A stretch of DNA of 37,347 nucleotides, taken from contig CAIWKO010000053.1 in assembly GCA_903913285.1 (NCBI GenBank), positions 1 to 37,347 of the forward strand, given 5' to 3'. Shown here in pieces: positions 12,624 to 37,347 of this stretch (positions within the stretch are counted from its first letter, which is position 1; each line of letters begins with the position of its first letter). This DNA comes from an uncultured Bacteroidales bacterium. GTDB taxonomy: Bacteria > Bacteroidota > Bacteroidia > Bacteroidales > CAIWKO01. The position numbers and the translations under genes are program-made. The notes below the pieces were generated by a model, which worked only from the letters and a program-made list of their open reading frames with translations, made no database searches and was not told where the DNA came from.

Positions 12624-13143
12624 TCAAAGTAGTATAAAGTAGGTTGTTTAAACAGGTTTAAAGAGTGTTTACACTAAGGCTTGGAGAGTTCGCACTTAGG
12701 CTTGGGAAGTCTGCAGTGAAGCTTGGGAAGGTTGCAGTAGAGCTTGGGAAGGTTGCAGTAGAGCTTGGAAAGTCTGCAGTGAAGCTTGGGAAGTCTGCAG
12801 TGAAGCTTGGAAAGTCTGCAGTGAAGCTTGGGAAGGTTGCAGTAGAGCTCGGAAAGTCTGCAGTAGAGAGCGGACGGTCGGTACTAGAACGCGGACAGTC
12901 GGCAGCGAAGTGATAGTTTTACTTAAAGTGAAGCTATTACATGATGAGATTGCTTCAGTCGTTCCTCCTTCGCAATGACGTTATTGCCCAGGCTAAAGAG
13001 TTATCAAATACCTCCTGTTAATAATTACCTAAAGTGGCGTGCGTTTGCAGCTGTAATAAATAATAAATTCGCTGATAATTTGATTATTATTCGTATAATA
13101 CAATTATTATCAATCAGATAAATACTTTTTAAAGCGTATCGAT
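12624..13143. other. Intergenic region with tandem array and one REP-like element
   Basis: Besides the 21-bp array, the stretch 12949-12976 is bounded by ATTGC and GCAAT and resembles a common bacterial palindromic repeat (TCATTGCGA...GAAGCAATC type). No supported gene is present, and no exact promoter element was found before the TPR gene at 13144. Confidence 0.6.
12677..12907 (+). repeat. 11-unit 21-bp tandem array
   Basis: Eleven contiguous 21-bp units of the form AAGCTTGGGAAGTCTGCAGT plus one base, with a common variant in which AGGTTGCAGTA replaces AGTCTGCAGTG. The first unit and the last two are the most divergent. Because 21 is a multiple of three, the plus strand stays open from GTG 12665 to 12913 and would encode heptads such as KLGKSAV/ELGKVAV. 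There is no ATG or ribosome-binding signal, so a protein is not supported. It lies downstream of the helicase gene. Confidence 0.85.
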
Positions 13144-31097: not shown

Positions 31098-31310
31098 TCA
31101 AAATAAATATTTTATTCCTCCGCAAAAAGGAACACGAATCCAACAAACAAAATTACAATTGAGCAATAGGCCATTACAAGATGTAAATAACCCGATTTAG
31201 CTGATTAAAAGTGTTGCTATTTTTCAGGTATAAAGACCTGATTTGAAAGGCTAAAAAGCACGCACATGATATTTATCTGTTCTGAATTATGATGCCGGAA
31301 AATAATAAAA

Positions 31311-31418
31311 GGACACGATATTATGGGTAATAGGCGGACAGGATATATCGTGTCCCTACATTTTAATGGTCATAAAATTTTATGGCCCAACATAAAAAGG
31401 ACACAAATTTTTGTGTCC
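31311..31418. repeat. Cluster of three palindromic REP-like elements
   Basis: GGACACGATAT (31311-31321) pairs with ATATCGTGTCC (31345-31355). A 20-bp near-palindrome follows at 31368-31387 (GGTCATAAAA/TTTTATGGCC), and a third at 31399-31418 (GGACACAAA/TTTGTGTCC, perfect). The first and third share GGACAC...GTGTCCCTACAT, so they look like copies of one mobile intergenic element. Confidence 0.6.
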
Positions 31419-31432
31419 CTACATAAAATTTT

Positions 31433-31462
31433 ACCGTTAACTTTTTAAAAGCTACCGTTAAC
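31433..31462 (+). promoter_or_regulatory. Candidate LytTR operator: paired ACCGTTAAC direct repeats
   Basis: Two identical 9-mers, ACCGTTAAC at 31433-31441 and 31454-31462, are separated by 12 nt (21 bp start to start). LytTR/AgrA-type sites are 9-bp direct repeats with a GTT core and a 12-13 bp spacer. The AgrA repeat ACAGTTAAG differs at two positions. The pair ends 10 bp before the -33 element, an activator-like position, and the gene downstream encodes a LytTR domain. Binding is inferred. Confidence 0.6.
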
Positions 31463-31472
31463 TTTTTTGTTC

Positions 31473-31503
31473 TTTGATTTCGCTTATTTGTATTTTAAAT
31501 TTG
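31473..31503 (+). promoter_or_regulatory. Consensus promoter of the LytTR gene
   Basis: TTTG (31473-31476), 19-bp spacer, TAAATTTG (31496-31503): a full match to the Bacteroidota -33/-7 pattern. The predicted start near 31510 gives a leader of about 88 nt before ATG 31598. Confidence 0.7.
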
Positions 31504-31597: not shown

Positions 31598-31969
31598 ATG
31601 ACAAACGAAGTAGTAGTGAACCAAAACGGCATCTACATCACCTACAACAACAAAATTATTTACCGTAAACTGTCCCAAATTATCTTCTGCAGAACCTTTG
31701 GCCGCAATTGCCAGATTTATTTCGACGACGGCAGCAAAGAAATAGCGCCCATTTGCCTTAAAGATCTCATGCTCCTCTTGCCCGCCGATAGTTTCAACCG
31801 CTGTCATACCCATTTCCTCATTCATCTCTTCATCATGGACAAAGGCTATATCTTCAAAGATAAAATTTATTACAAAGAACACGTAATTCCCGTTTCCCGT
31901 CTTCGCATCAATCAACTCATCCAAAGCATCAAAAACTATTTTCACATTCCGCTCAAAAAATTGAGTTAA
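31598..31969 (+). CDS. Stand-alone LytTR DNA-binding domain protein
   Basis: The 123-aa protein is essentially one LytTR domain: LSQIIFCRTFGRNCQIYFDDGS, LKDLMLLLPADSFNRCHTHFLIHLFIMDKG, then the closing VIPVSRLRINQLIQSI, which matches the family's IPVSRRR-type end. There is no receiver domain, kinase partner or membrane segment, so it would be an orphan transcription regulator. LytTR proteins bind paired direct repeats, and such a pair lies just upstream of its own promoter, suggesting autoregulation. The first ~15 residues (MTNEVVVNQNGIYITY) lead directly into the domain. Targets other than itself, possibly the downstream genes, are inference. Confidence 0.82.
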   Translation: MTNEVVVNQNGIYITYNNKIIYRKLSQIIFCRTFGRNCQIYFDDGSKEIAPICLKDLMLLLPADSFNRCHTHFLIHLFIMDKGYIFKDKIYYKEHVIPVSRLRINQLIQSIKNYFHIPLKKLS

Positions 31970-32637
31970 CAAAACATCATTTTTATAAAAAAACAACCAT
32001 TTTGTAGTCTTTCCTCCGAAAATCACCAATTTTCCCTCAAAAAACACCCCCATTTCAAAAACCAATTTTGTATCTCAAATTGCAGGTTTTGTATCCCGCA
32101 ATAGCCAAACTTTGCAAAGTTGCTACATGACGATAGTTCTGCTTCAACTCGTTGTAATTTTGTATCGTCAAGTTCAATTTGAAAACACGGGTACAAAAAA
32201 TGCAGATCAAAAGTACAAGATATTATTTCGAACTTAGCATGAAACACAGTAGTTGCAATGCTTTTGCCAACGTTTGGAAGGTTTTGAACGGCCCTTATCA
32301 AGTTATGGTCAAGCCTTATCGGGTTTTGGTCAACCTTTATAAGGTTTTGGTCAACCCTTATCAAGTTATGGTCAACCCTTACCGAGTTAAGATTAACCCT
32401 TATCAGGTTTTGGTCAGCCCTTATCAAGTTATGGTCAACCCTTATCAGGTTTTGATTAACCCTTATCAGGTTTTGGTAAGCCTTTATCAGGTTATGGTCA
32501 AGCCTTATCGGGTTTCGGATATCCCGTGTCGGGATGTGGTTCACGTTTTATCGGATATGGACTTTTTAACGGAAAAGATTAATAAATCAACACATTATAA
32601 AACAATTAATTTAGTAGTAACCTAAAACCTAATTATT
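31970..32637. other. Intergenic region carrying the second 21-bp array
   Basis: No convincing gene is present. Long open frames on both strands over 32023-32625 result from the 21-bp periodic array and start at weak codons. The left ~300 bp (31970-32280) show no recognised element. Confidence 0.55.
32293..32544 (+). repeat. 12-unit 21-bp tandem array
   Basis: Twelve contiguous units of the form CCTTATCAGGTTTTGGTCAA plus C, with a frequent CAAGTTATGG variant. The last two units decay. On the plus strand the array would encode NPYQVLV-type heptads and on the minus strand NLIRVDQ-type heptads, both without stops, so strand and coding status are undecided. It lies between the LytTR gene and the 402-aa gene and is unrelated in sequence to the array at 12677-12907, though it has the same period. 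Confidence 0.85.
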
Positions 32638-33846
32638 ATGAACAAGTATGAAATTGCCCATTACAATAGTTATGACAGAATCAGAATTTTTGTCACGAAA
32701 AACAGTACAGCACTGAATGCCGTATCTTTGTTCGTATCGCTGCTTGTCGTTTTTAACGGCGATCTGACAGCACTTGAAAATGCTATTTTGCTGCAGACCG
32801 TTGAAACCGGGATGGACGCAGCCGACAAGGAAGTTATTAAGAAAATTTTAGGCAACACGGTGATAAAATACGCTGAACGCGGCTGTGTGCAAGCCCACCT
32901 GCTGGGTGAAAACAAAATGGAAGGAAACCTGGATTTTCCGGTTTCGTATATCACCAAGGCTAATGATAAGTCAGCTCTGGCACGGTCCACCGACCTGAAA
33001 GTTTATATGAACGACAATATGGCTACGCTGACTGAAATTAAAGCTGCCGATATTAGCGATATGGAAAAGGTGATCGCTAAATTTGATGCTGTGATGAATT
33101 TGCCGGGGAGCGATATTAAAACACGAAAATCGGAAGGAACTGATCAGATTTCGGTATGCATAGCCAAGCTGGAAACCGATAAGGCTTTGATGGGCAAATT
33201 GATACATTCGTATTTCGAGAGTCTGGAAGGGAACTGGATCACGGAAAGCCGCATAGGACAGCCAAAAGGCATGCGACACACCTCTATTTTATACAAATTT
33301 TTGGATGCCGATACAGGCGGCGCAGTTTTGAAAGTGAAATGCGCCCTTACAAAAGGCCAGCTGAGCGAGGTGAAATATAGCAGCCGACTGGGATGGATGC
33401 GGGCATACAGTCTGGAACCGGGCTCATGGAACCTGACGGCAGAGAACGATATGTATCAAACCGTGGTGACCACAAATATTAAAGTGGATGATGAGCATAT
33501 TGAAAAGAAGACGATAATTTTGCAAAAAAAAACCGTGACTGACGACGGCACAACCCCCGTCACCACGGGCTACGGCAATGGCTTCGGCGTAATGTACAAC
33601 AGCGTGAGCCTCGAGCCCATTGCCAATGGTTTGGTATTTCTCGACAAAGTTGCCGAACCCATCGAAACCGACGACGACGGTTCGTGGGGCAACGATCACA
33701 TACCCGCCGACTGCAAAACCATCCGCGGCACCGCCGACGGCTATGCCAACTATTTTAAAAACATCAGCATCACTCCCGACGACGACAACGAAATAGATTT
33801 GCCGATGGACCCGGTGGACGACGGGCCTCCGGCACCTGATGCTTGA
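32638..33846 (+). CDS. Uncharacterised protein with helical N-half and beta-sandwich-like C-half
   Basis: I do not recognise a named family for this 402-aa protein. There is no signal peptide. The first ~200 residues look mostly helical (MDAADKEVIKKILGNTVIKY, VCIAKLETDKALMGKLIHSY). The rest resembles two carboxypeptidase-regulatory-like beta-sandwiches in tandem: GGAVLKVKCALTKGQLSEVK...LEPGSWNLTAEN, then PIANGLVFLDKVAEPIETDD...GTADGYANYFKNISI. The tail is very acidic (DDDNEIDLPMDPVDDGPPAPDA). It is probably cytoplasmic or released by an unknown route. It follows the 21-bp array and precedes an adhesin gene. Function unknown. Confidence 0.7.
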   Translation: MNKYEIAHYNSYDRIRIFVTKNSTALNAVSLFVSLLVVFNGDLTALENAILLQTVETGMDAADKEVIKKILGNTVIKYAERGCVQAHLLGENKMEGNLDFPVSYITKANDKSALARSTDLKVYMNDNMATLTEIKAADISDMEKVIAKFDAVMNLPGSDIKTRKSEGTDQISVCIAKLETDKALMGKLIHSYFESLEGNWITESRIGQPKGMRHTSILYKFLDADTGGAVLKVKCALTKGQLSEVKYSSRLGWMRAYSLEPGSWNLTAENDMYQTVVTTNIKVDDEHIEKKTIILQKKTVTDDGTTPVTTGYGNGFGVMYNSVSLEPIANGLVFLDKVAEPIETDDDGSWGNDHIPADCKTIRGTADGYANYFKNISITPDDDNEIDLPMDPVDDGPPAPDA

Positions 33847-34238: not shown

Positions 34239-37200
34239 ATGAAACATAATCGTATTCTTTTTATTGTAATTTTTATTGTCATAACTAATTTAAATCTTAA
34301 AGCTCAGTATTGCACCAGCAGTTCAAATAGTTGTAGCTGGGAATACATTTCAAACGTTACCTGCGGCAGCATTAATAACAGTACTGCGTGTGCGGGATAT
34401 GGAAACTATACTTCATTATTATCAACAAATATGGCATTGGGAAGTACTCAAACAATCTCAGTTACTAACGGGCAATATTCTTCCGGTGATTATGTTGATG
34501 TCTGGATCGATTATAACCATAACGGTGTTTTTACGGATGCCGGAGAACAAGTTGATCATGTTGCTCAGACAGGGGCTACTACAATCACAAATTTTACAGT
34601 TCCGATAACAGCAGCATTCGGGCCCACCACAATGAGAGTTTGCATTAGTTATAGTTCCGGTACTTCACCGTGTGGAACCATACAATACGGGGAGTATGAA
34701 GATTATACGGTTAATTTAACCTATTGCACAGTCGGTTCCAATAGTTGTTCGTGGGAATACATTTCAAACGTTACTTTAGGAAGTATTAATAACAGTACGG
34801 CTTGTGCCGGATATGGAAACTATACTTCAATGTCTGCAAATCTGTCTTTGGGAAGTACCCAAACAATTTCAGTCACCAACGGACAATATTCTTCAGGCGA
34901 TTATGTTGACGTATGGATCGATTATAATAATAATGGTTTTTTTACAGATGCCGGTGAACAAGTTGTTCATGTTGCTCAGACCAGTGCTACTACAGCCGTT
35001 AACTTTACCGTACCTACCACTGCAACTTTTGGACCTGTAAGAATGAGAGTTTGTATCGGTTATAGTTCCGGTAATTCACCGTGTGGAACCTTACAATACG
35101 GGGAGTATGAAGATTATACGGTTAATTTAACCTATTGCACCAGTGGTTCCAATAGTTGTTCGTGGGAATACATTTCAAACGTTACTTTAGGGAGCATTAA
35201 TAACAGTACCTCTTGTGCCGGATATGGAAACTATACTTCAATGTCTACAAATCTGTCTTTGGGAAGTACCCAAACAATTTCAGTCACCAACGGACAATAT
35301 TATTCAGGCGATTATGTTGACGTATGGATCGATTATAATAATAATGGTTTTTTTACAGATGCCGGTGAACAAGTTGTTCATGTTGCTCAGACCATTGCTA
35401 CAACAGCCGTTAACTTTACCGTACCTGCCACTGCAACTTTTGGACCTGTAAGAATGAGAGTTTGTATCGGTTATAGTTCCGGTAATTCACCGTGTGGAAC
35501 CTTACAATACGGGGAGTATGAAGATTATACGGTTAATTTAACCTATTGCACCAGTGGTTCCATTAGTTGTTCGTGGGAATACATTTCAAACGTTACTTGC
35601 GGCAGCATTAATAACAGTTCTGCGTGTACAGGATATGGAGACTATACATCATTATCCACGAATATGCCATTGGGAAGCACACAGACAATTTCGGTTACCA
35701 ACGGACAATATTATTCAGGCGATTATGTTGATGTATGGATAGATTATAACCATAATGGTTTTTATACTGATGCAGGAGAACAAGTTGTCCATGTTGCACA
35801 AACAACTGCAATTACAACCGCTAGTTATACTGTACCCTTAACTGCAACATTTGAACAGACAACAATGAGGGTGAGTATCAGCTACAGTTCCGGGGCATCA
35901 CCTTGTGGAACCATACAATATGGAGAGTATGAAGATTATACTATTAATAAACCATGCCTTCCACCTATAATTATTGCTACACCTTCAACTATTTGTAATG
36001 GATCAAGTACAAGTTTGTCAGCAACAGGAGCCATAAGCTATTCCTGGAGCAACAGTTCAACCGGAACCCCGGTAACAGTCTCTCCAACCTCCACTACGGT
36101 TTACACAGTTACAAGCACAGCTGCAAATGGTTGTACAAGTACAGCAAGTGCAACTGTTACAGTAAATGCATTGCCAACAGTTAACCTTGCAAATTTCAGC
36201 AGTGTTTGTGTCAGTGCAGCACCCTTTACGTTAACGGGCGGGACCCCAACCGGAGGAACATACAGCGGGACGGGCGTGAGTGCAGGTGTTTTTAATCCGG
36301 CATCAGCTGGTGTAGACACTTTTACAATAACGTATTCCTATACCGATGCTAATTCGTGTACCAACACGGAGTCAAAGTCAATTATGGTAAATGCATTGCC
36401 AACAGCTAACCTTGCAAATTTCAGCAGTGTTTGTGTCAGCGCAGCACCCTTTACGTTAACAGGCGGAACCCCGACAGGAGGAACATACAGCGGGACGGGC
36501 GTGAGCGGAGGTGTTTTTAATCCGGCATCAGCTGGTGTAGACACTTTTGCAATAACCTATTCTTATACCGATGGTAATTCGTGTACCAACACAGCGTCAA
36601 ATACCATTACGGTAAGTGCATTGCCAACAGTTAACCTTGCAAATTTCAACAGTGTTTGTGTCAGCGCAGCACCCTTTACGTTAACAGGCGGGACCCCGAC
36701 AGGAGGAATATACAGTGGCACGGGCGTGAGCGGAGGTGTTTTTAATCCGGCATCAGCTGGTGTAGACACTTTTGCAATAACGTATTCTTATACCGATGGT
36801 AATTCGTGTACCAACACAGCGTCAAATACCATTACTGTAAGTGCATTGCCAACAGTTAACCTTGCAAATTTCAGCAGCGTTTGTGTCAGTGCAGCACCCT
36901 TTACATTAACAGGCGGAACCCCAAGCGGAGGAACTTACAGCGGAACGGGTGTGAGTGCAGGTGTTTTTAATCCCGCGACAGCCGGTGTGGGAACTTTTAC
37001 AATAACCTATTCTTATACCAATGGTAATTCGTGTACCAATACAGCGTCAAAGTCAATTACGGTAAATGCATTGCCAACAGTTAACCTTGCAAATTTCAGC
37101 AGTGTTTGTGTCAGCGCAGCACCCTTTACCTTAACAGGCGGAACCCCAAGCGGAGGAACTTATAGCGGGACAGGCGTGAGTGCAGGTGTTTTTAACCCCG

Positions 37201-37347
37201 CGACAGCTGGTGTAGGAACTTTTACAATAACGTATTCCTATACCGATGCTAATTCGTGTACCAACACGGAGTCAAAGTCAATTATGGTAAATGCATTGCC
37301 AACAGCTAACCTTGCAAATTTCAGCAGTGTTTGTGTCAGCGCAGCAC
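34239..37347 (+). CDS. Secreted GEVED/Ig-like repeat adhesin, 5' part (runs off window)
   Basis: The frame is open from ATG 34239 to the right edge (1036 codons, no stop). A signal peptide (MKHNRILFIVIFIVITNLNL, cleavage near KAQ) is followed by four tandem GEVED domains of 137-138 residues (TAT at 34308, 34722, 35133 and 35544). Each carries VDVWIDYNxNGxFTDAGEQV and ends QYGEYEDYTVN. An Ig-like domain (about 35955-36161) follows, then 75-aa repeats (225 bp) beginning NALPTVNLANFSSVCVSAAP and containing GGTYSGTGVSAGVFNPA. GEVED domains are common in T9SS-exported surface proteins. The sorting domain would lie beyond the window. The second and third GEVED units differ at only about a dozen bases by eye, indicating recent duplication. 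Confidence 0.9.
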   Translation, partial: MKHNRILFIVIFIVITNLNLKAQYCTSSSNSCSWEYISNVTCGSINNSTACAGYGNYTSLLSTNMALGSTQTISVTNGQYSSGDYVDVWIDYNHNGVFTDAGEQVDHVAQTGATTITNFTVPITAAFGPTTMRVCISYSSGTSPCGTIQYGEYEDYTVNLTYCTVGSNSCSWEYISNVTLGSINNSTACAGYGNYTSMSANLSLGSTQTISVTNGQYSSGDYVDVWIDYNNNGFFTDAGEQVVHVAQTSATTAVNFTVPTTATFGPVRMRVCIGYSSGNSPCGTLQYGEYEDYTVNLTYCTSGSNSCSWEYISNVTLGSINNSTSCAGYGNYTSMSTNLSLGSTQTISVTNGQYYSGDYVDVWIDYNNNGFFTDAGEQVVHVAQTIATTAVNFTVPATATFGPVRMRVCIGYSSGNSPCGTLQYGEYEDYTVNLTYCTSGSISCSWEYISNVTCGSINNSSACTGYGDYTSLSTNMPLGSTQTISVTNGQYYSGDYVDVWIDYNHNGFYTDAGEQVVHVAQTTAITTASYTVPLTATFEQTTMRVSISYSSGASPCGTIQYGEYEDYTINKPCLPPIIIATPSTICNGSSTSLSATGAISYSWSNSSTGTPVTVSPTSTTVYTVTSTAANGCTSTASATVTVNALPTVNLANFSSVCVSAAPFTLTGGTPTGGTYSGTGVSAGVFNPASAGVDTFTITYSYTDANSCTNTESKSIMVNALPTANLANFSSVCVSAAPFTLTGGTPTGGTYSGTGVSGGVFNPASAGVDTFAITYSYTDGNSCTNTASNTITVSALPTVNLANFNSVCVSAAPFTLTGGTPTGGIYSGTGVSGGVFNPASAGVDTFAITYSYTDGNSCTNTASNTITVSALPTVNLANFSSVCVSAAPFTLTGGTPSGGTYSGTGVSAGVFNPATAGVGTFTITYSYTNGNSCTNTASKSITVNALPTVNLANFSSVCVSAAPFTLTGGTPSGGTYSGTGVSAGVFNPATAGVGTFTITYSYTDANSCTNTESKSIMVNALPTANLANFSSVCVSAA
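34308..35954 (+). repeat. Four tandem GEVED-domain repeats (414/411 bp)
   Basis: In-frame units begin at 34308, 34722, 35133 and 35544. The two central units are nearly identical and the outer two more diverged, consistent with unequal crossing-over inside the gene. Confidence 0.85.
36162..37347 (+). repeat. Tandem 225-bp (75-aa) adhesin repeats
   Basis: Units begin at 36162, 36387, 36612, 36837, 37062 and 37287 (last one cut by the window). The phase is exact. The stretch from about 37226 to the window end repeats about 36326-36447 without visible change, at an offset of 900 bp (four units). Confidence 0.88.

Follow-up and report, generated by a model that had tools for sequence, protein, structure and literature searches.

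What controls a stand-alone LytTR gene that has a LytTR-type operator directly in front of it? The question is raised by a gene for a 123-aa protein (31598–31969, forward strand) on a contig of 37,347 nt from an uncultured Bacteroidales bacterium. This contig, C53 of a 4.0-Mb genome in 70 contigs (G000), is referred to over its whole length as the window. Upstream of the gene, on the same strand, lie two exact copies of ACCGTTAAC (31433–31441 and 31454–31462) with 12 nt between them, the second beginning 21 bp after the first. A gap of 10 bp (31463–31472) separates the repeats from a TTTG element of the -33 type (31473–31476), and 19 nt further on comes TAAATTTG (31496–31503), which we take to be a -7-type element of the Bacteroidota consensus. 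An earlier note on this DNA had described both the repeats and the TTTG-N19-TAAATTTG promoter ahead of the LytTR-type ORF, correctly to the base, and had proposed autoregulation by the encoded protein as the simplest model. Sequence comparisons across the order point instead to a conserved two-component regulator, encoded at another place in the genome, as the most likely controller of the operator; the 123-aa protein itself probably does not have this role.

In the text available from PMC6193735, a LytTR-type operator is defined as two direct repeats of about 9 bp that are 11–13 bp apart, and LytTR regulatory systems are described as having two 9-bp direct repeats, a 12-bp spacer and a distance of 10 bp to the promoter; the available text of PMC4227749 places the repeats bound by AgrA near -60. 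The window repeats follow the 9-12-9 pattern exactly, are separated from the -33 element by 10 bp and, with an assumed start site, fall at about the position of the AgrA repeats. The reading of the paired repeats as a predicted LytTR-type operator of the AgrA/LytR kind, already offered in the earlier note, is supported by this agreement in geometry and position. Just upstream of the operator (31298–31428) lies a dispersed repeat, GGACAC...GTGTCCCTACAT, whose 14-base core has three copies in the genome, one of them upstream of the operator on contig C15.

The 123-aa ORF is a credible, if borderline, LytTR protein. Its Pfam LytTR (PF04397) score is 22.5 bits against a cut-off of 22.6, and it passed the cut-off in a genome search counting neighbours in frame. 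The best fold match of a single-sequence structure model was a LytTR domain (3d6w), a weak match (E 0.07, probability 0.95) from a modest model (mean pLDDT 64.6, with no fold match at E ≤0.001). A first search of a collection of genome contigs found no relative of the protein, and a PDB sequence search returned a single match (E 0.16). As the earlier note had read it, the protein consists of a LytTR domain without a receiver domain, and it appears to be soluble, with a highest 19-residue hydropathy of 1.07. A profile search finds 14 LytTR places in the genome.

A genome scan for further repeat pairs, which had been suggested as a check, found 22 exact occurrences of ACCGTTAAC-N12-ACCGTTAAC. 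Only 9e-5 are expected by chance on both strands of 4.0 Mb (first-order Markov model, from 150 kb of the genome), so the pair is not a chance occurrence; the pattern read backwards gave no exact match in the genome. When three mismatches were allowed, 32 matches were found and the backward control found 30, so this search is uninformative and the exact search alone counts. The 12-mer TACCGTTAACTT had 37 matches, as compared with two for its backward control. Merging of overlapping or neighbouring pairs reduces the 22 pairs to 20 promoter regions, to which a near-exact repeat triple on C68 adds a 21st in the alignment. Since these promoters were chosen by their repeats, the invariance of the repeats among them is no evidence and only the alignment outside them is informative. 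All 21 promoters share TT after repeat 1, a T on either side of repeat 2, and TT at the fourth and fifth bases past repeat 2; T before repeat 1 and C two positions before repeat 2 are each present in 19. The inner spacer is mostly variable, and few neighbouring positions are shared outside the repeats. The distance from the operator to a TTG is one and the same in 13 of the 21 promoters and one base longer in two, including that of the window; in the other six no clear TTG is seen where one would be expected, which counts against control by a response regulator.

The genes behind the operators encode VIT/vWA proteins, a TonB receptor, ExbB, TonB, an adenosine-deaminase-like protein, a GWxTD protein and secreted proteins, and the operator on C6 is followed first by a tRNA-Ser gene and second by a gene for a PBP_like_2 protein. 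Four operators lead into stand-alone LytTR genes (in the window and on C23, C15 and C33) and three into small HTH-like ORFs (on C43, C45 and C66); of these three, the C43 protein alone matches a Pfam HTH profile. Several targets recur in other genomes: the GWxTD protein is shared with G229 (Pfam), the adenosine-deaminase-like gene with G001 and a GPDN(V/I)GGRTRAI protein with G110 and G117 (the latter two by eye). In both L028 (G000:C39) and L066 (G229:C114), the operator–GWxTD pair is flanked on its other side by tRNA-Ser(tga), and therefore the whole neighbourhood is conserved.

One further operator, on contig C5, lies between a gene for a protein with the Pfam domains Response_reg and LytTR and a gene for a TonB receptor, the latter confirmed by Pfam in this genome. 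The order regulator, operator, TonB receptor is also found in G001, G003, G110, G198, G277 and G086, seven genomes in total, with a small ORF interposed in three of these six. Directly upstream of the regulator, five of the seven genomes (this one, G110, G198, G277 and G086) carry a Reg_prop/Y_Y_Y/His_kinase gene, so that kinase and receiver–LytTR genes form a pair in this genome and four others. In G001 and G003, which belong to the genus of the window, this place is taken not by the kinase gene but by another ORF, one without a Pfam match, a point against the pairing.

We built a profile from the seven regulators and ran it over 295 genomes of the order, 40 of which gave a match of at least 354 bits. 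Regulator loci were taken from 30 of the 40, among the best; that of G189 ends at a contig edge, leaving 29 in which 429–465 bases behind the regulator gene were scanned. A pair with a 21-bp period scoring at least 13 of 16 is present behind 24 of these 29 orthologues, and the 21-bp period beats eight other periods tested in 27 of them. Without the six loci where the motif was first seen, 18 of 23 still score at least 13. Among 26 control LytTR genes of the regulator type only two have such a pair (Fisher p 5e-8 against the orthologues, computed with 23 rather than 24 and at a threshold of 13 set after seeing the scores). The operator is thus linked to the regulator gene across species, its common form behind these genes being, by eye, (A/G)CCGNNAACTKATT twice. 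Two of the 29 loci, in G270 and G212, have no outstanding pair behind the regulator gene and count against the link. The same holds for two other LytTR genes, L107 (G266:C251) and L115 (G189:C140), each followed by a 21-bp-period pair that scores 13; the unit of the L115 pair is CCCGTTCACTAAA-like and is perhaps an operator variant of its own. In named genomes, where 44 of 80 loci were examined, the pair was found in all three loci with at least 60% identity and in none of the 41 with at most 53%. Of these three, L218 probably duplicates G086:C69, and the other two are uncultured Bacteroidetes/Bacteroidales assemblies.

The exact pair is present in 11 of the 295 genomes of the order, where its backward control gave two matches, both in a single genome. 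A phylum sample added 246 other genomes; the exact pair was found in none of these, and the backward control matched once. Of the 11 genomes that carry the exact pair, 10 have a regulator match of at least 354 bits, as do 30 of the 284 that lack it (p 7e-9, with the 354-bit threshold set afterwards). Two observations count against a strict association. G229 has one exact operator, that before its GWxTD gene, and no regulator match at E 1e-60; and 30 of the 40 genomes with the regulator have no exact pair, a diverged pair being usual beside the regulator gene in the loci looked at (29 of the 40 genomes).

Directly observed are the sites and how many there are, their retention next to the regulator gene, and the geometry of the promoters. 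On these grounds we consider it probable that the paired repeats are the operator of a two-component system whose response regulator activates the window gene as a member of its regulon. The binding, phosphorylation and activation steps are predicted. A signal would be passed by the propeller-type (Reg_prop/Y_Y_Y) histidine kinase to the receiver–LytTR response regulator encoded on C5. With a spacing of 21 bp, or two helical turns, both repeats would be bound by the phosphorylated regulator from the same side of the DNA, immediately ahead of the -33 element, and transcription would be activated in the manner of AgrA and other LytTR activators. The window gene would be one of about 20 target promoter regions, the other proposed targets including genes for TonB, ExbB, the TonB receptor, VIT/vWA proteins and secreted proteins. 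Through its membership of the regulon, the stand-alone LytTR protein would come under the control of a signal-fed regulator.

The alternative that survives best, and which we still regard as unlikely, is dual control: both the response regulator and the stand-alone protein would bind, and the stand-alone protein, needing no phosphorylation, would act as competitor or co-activator and so exert feedback on the whole regulon. The 123-aa protein does have a LytTR domain and retains the H and R of the contact motif (FNRCHTHFL), and the identical exact operator precedes each of the four paralogues in its clade, although the proteins have diverged. We take the IPVSRRK region to be a LytTR contact motif. 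It was compared together with the FhRhHRS region, for which we relied on the available text of PMC4227749. Proteins reading one common operator should keep their contact motifs constant, as is seen in 18 regulators, whose motifs are 90% identical versus 57% elsewhere in the domain; in the four operator-driven stand-alone proteins, the motifs are 44% identical versus 41% in the remainder of the domain. A tree of 69 LytTR domains, in which the deeper branches are weak, likewise does not group these four with the regulators: the four form one clade and the 18 regulators another, each with a support of 100. Because the four proteins form one clade, their shared operator may have been gained once. 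We also considered the stand-alone LytTR protein as a copy of the DNA-binding domain of the response regulator; the tree does not support this idea, since the two clades do not join, at branches that are, again, weak.

Pure autoregulation, with the 123-aa protein as sole binder in a positive feedback on its own promoter, has in its favour the geometry of LytTR regulatory systems, down to the 9-bp repeats, 12-bp spacer and 10-bp distance (available text of PMC6193735). We nevertheless consider it very unlikely. The same pair precedes 20 promoter regions, only four of which lead into stand-alone LytTR genes, the operators being found at non-LytTR genes too, and in many families it adjoins the gene of a LytTR response regulator that is both full-length and conserved. 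We took 26 of 36 operator places in other genomes and searched up to 1.5 kb on each side for LytTR domains; the only LytTR genes were five response regulators, and no stand-alone LytTR gene was found near these loci, so that, in the loci examined, operators are present in genomes that have no operator-linked stand-alone gene. The contact motifs, as shown above, are not specially conserved in the four proteins that share the operator. Within the genus, the upstream regions of 13 further stand-alone LytTR genes were compared, and this operator was found at none of them. Five of the 13 (C20, C4, G003 C387, C174 and C7) have weaker pairs of their own, with 8–9 of 9 bases matching at a distance of 20–21 bp (shuffle p 0.005–0.05), which would fit self-regulation; those of C20 and C4 fall within a TCTGAATTC micro-repeat, and we consider it unlikely that the weaker pairs are operators. 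A multi-pass membrane inhibitor gene, as expected in the same operon, was not found among the ORFs downstream in the window by hydropathy: a 402-aa protein has one weak hydrophobic segment (1.86 at residue 28, less hydrophobic in its paralogues by eye), and the ORF across a tandem array reaches at most 0.97. Least credible is a spreading promoter element or repeat family of no regulatory meaning, for which the many identical copies and the recombination of cassettes as modules speak; against it stand the sparse sharing of positions outside the repeats, the mostly variable inner spacer, the retention of the pair beside one orthologous gene across many families and the lack of any exact pair in the 246 genomes that the phylum sample adds.

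Several known systems resemble the arrangement described here. Known Bacteroidota Reg_prop/Y_Y_Y systems are typically fused hybrids that control one polysaccharide locus. The locus on C5 resembles them in the sensor order Reg_prop, Y_Y_Y, His_kinase and in its TonB-receptor neighbour but differs in having a separate LytTR response regulator and a genome-wide operator set. The HdrRM and BrsRM systems of Streptococcus mutans, as far as they are described in the available text of PMC6193735, share with the window a soluble LytTR regulator that lacks a receiver and whose gene has, about 10 bp ahead of its promoter, two 9-bp direct repeats with a 12-bp spacer; here, in contrast, no multi-pass membrane inhibitor gene adjoins, and the same operator recurs at about 20 promoter regions and at the locus of a response regulator. 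AgrA of Staphylococcus aureus is, in the available text of PMC4227749, likewise a LytTR response regulator with direct repeats near -60 upstream of the promoter. Unlike AgrA, the present system has a Bacteroidota -33/-7 promoter, a propeller histidine kinase and a broad set of envelope and secretion targets, and its contact motif is F.RPHKSHL as compared with FFRCHNS. We found no paper on this operator or regulator in the open-access literature searched, and a search with the letters of the repeat gave none that was relevant by title among the matches listed.

Downstream of the LytTR gene, the window carries a tandem array of 10.6 copies of a 21-bp unit, CCCTTATCAGGTTATGGTCAA (32292–32514), which is probably not coding. 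It is followed by the gene for the 402-aa protein (32638–33846, forward strand), which has a CarboxypepD_reg-like C-terminal part and belongs to a multi-copy family, of which this genome has at least 12 matching members (12 of 46 candidates scored); its structure model is useless (mean pLDDT 29.9). The three elements recur together. Of 14 other stand-alone LytTR genes in this genome, G001 and G003 (a count that leaves out G003 C59), 11 adjoin a 21-bp array and a gene for a protein of 140–400 aa; such neighbours are missing at G003 C387, G003 C174 and G001 C42, two of which are near contig ends. Rows of 21 bp, in some cases of only two or three copies, also lie upstream of the family gene in 15 of 18 further regions around members of the 402-aa family, including regions from other families (G042, G132, G032 and G150) and one, L215, with a small HTH ORF in front of the rows; L202, L211 and L216 have none. 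An array follows within 1.5 kb downstream of eight of the 21 operator promoters in this genome, versus about 9% expected from the array density of this window, a rough yardstick. In G001:C217, an operator precedes an array-like ORF and a relative of an operator target of this genome (by eye).

At the DNA level, the window shares the operator and LytTR gene with C23, the operator, array and gene with C15, and, with C43, nothing but the operator and the 3' end of the gene. L130 (G000:C33) and L133 (G000:C66) have the same gene at the end of their contigs and, in front of it, closely similar arrays (DNA identity about 92%); the small DNA-binding genes upstream differ, being LytTR with a DnaJ-like gene between in L130 and HTH-like in L133. 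In three of five aligned members of the 402-aa family (the window protein, L128 and L131), the C-terminal ~100 residues are almost identical and the N-terminal parts diverge, as if the ends had been exchanged between copies. The arrays were also considered as coding 7-residue repeats; as a rule this was not supported, since most open frames show no third-position excess in a codon test that kept period-21 rows only (separate array listings gave the periods unforced). Two of 21 arrays (L132 and L134) have no open sense frame, and one, L131, looks coding-like, with 2, 2 and 11 changes by codon position. A second array in the window (12675–12865) has the same 21-bp period and an unrelated unit sequence; it lies between ORFs of 833 and 1032 aa, and no small DNA-binding ORF was noticed beside it. 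Tandem repeats with long periods, about 411 and 225 bp (34308–35948 and 36157–37347), look as though they lie in one large secreted protein that runs off the contig.

A stand-alone LytTR gene or small HTH gene, a 21-bp array and a gene for a protein of 300–400 aa may make up a mosaic cassette whose small protein recognises the array beside it, so that the regulator would switch on private readers in a recombining two-tier control. We offer this reading tentatively and regard it as unlikely; it is suggested by the array period, which equals the spacing of LytTR operators, and by the variation of array sequence and contact residues between cassettes, as private protein–array pairs would show. 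A tandem array from the same phylum, the minisatellite within a MITE of Porphyromonas gingivalis, is reported in PMC4596501; among the papers listed, judged by titles and the starts of abstracts, none seems to deal with 21-bp minisatellites beside stand-alone LytTR genes.

With these results, the regulator gains a predicted operator and a predicted list of targets across many Bacteroidales families, testable from sequence, and a gene that appeared to be self-regulated would become a downstream node of a two-component system. The cassette reading, if true, would explain why 21-bp minisatellites lie beside stand-alone LytTR genes.
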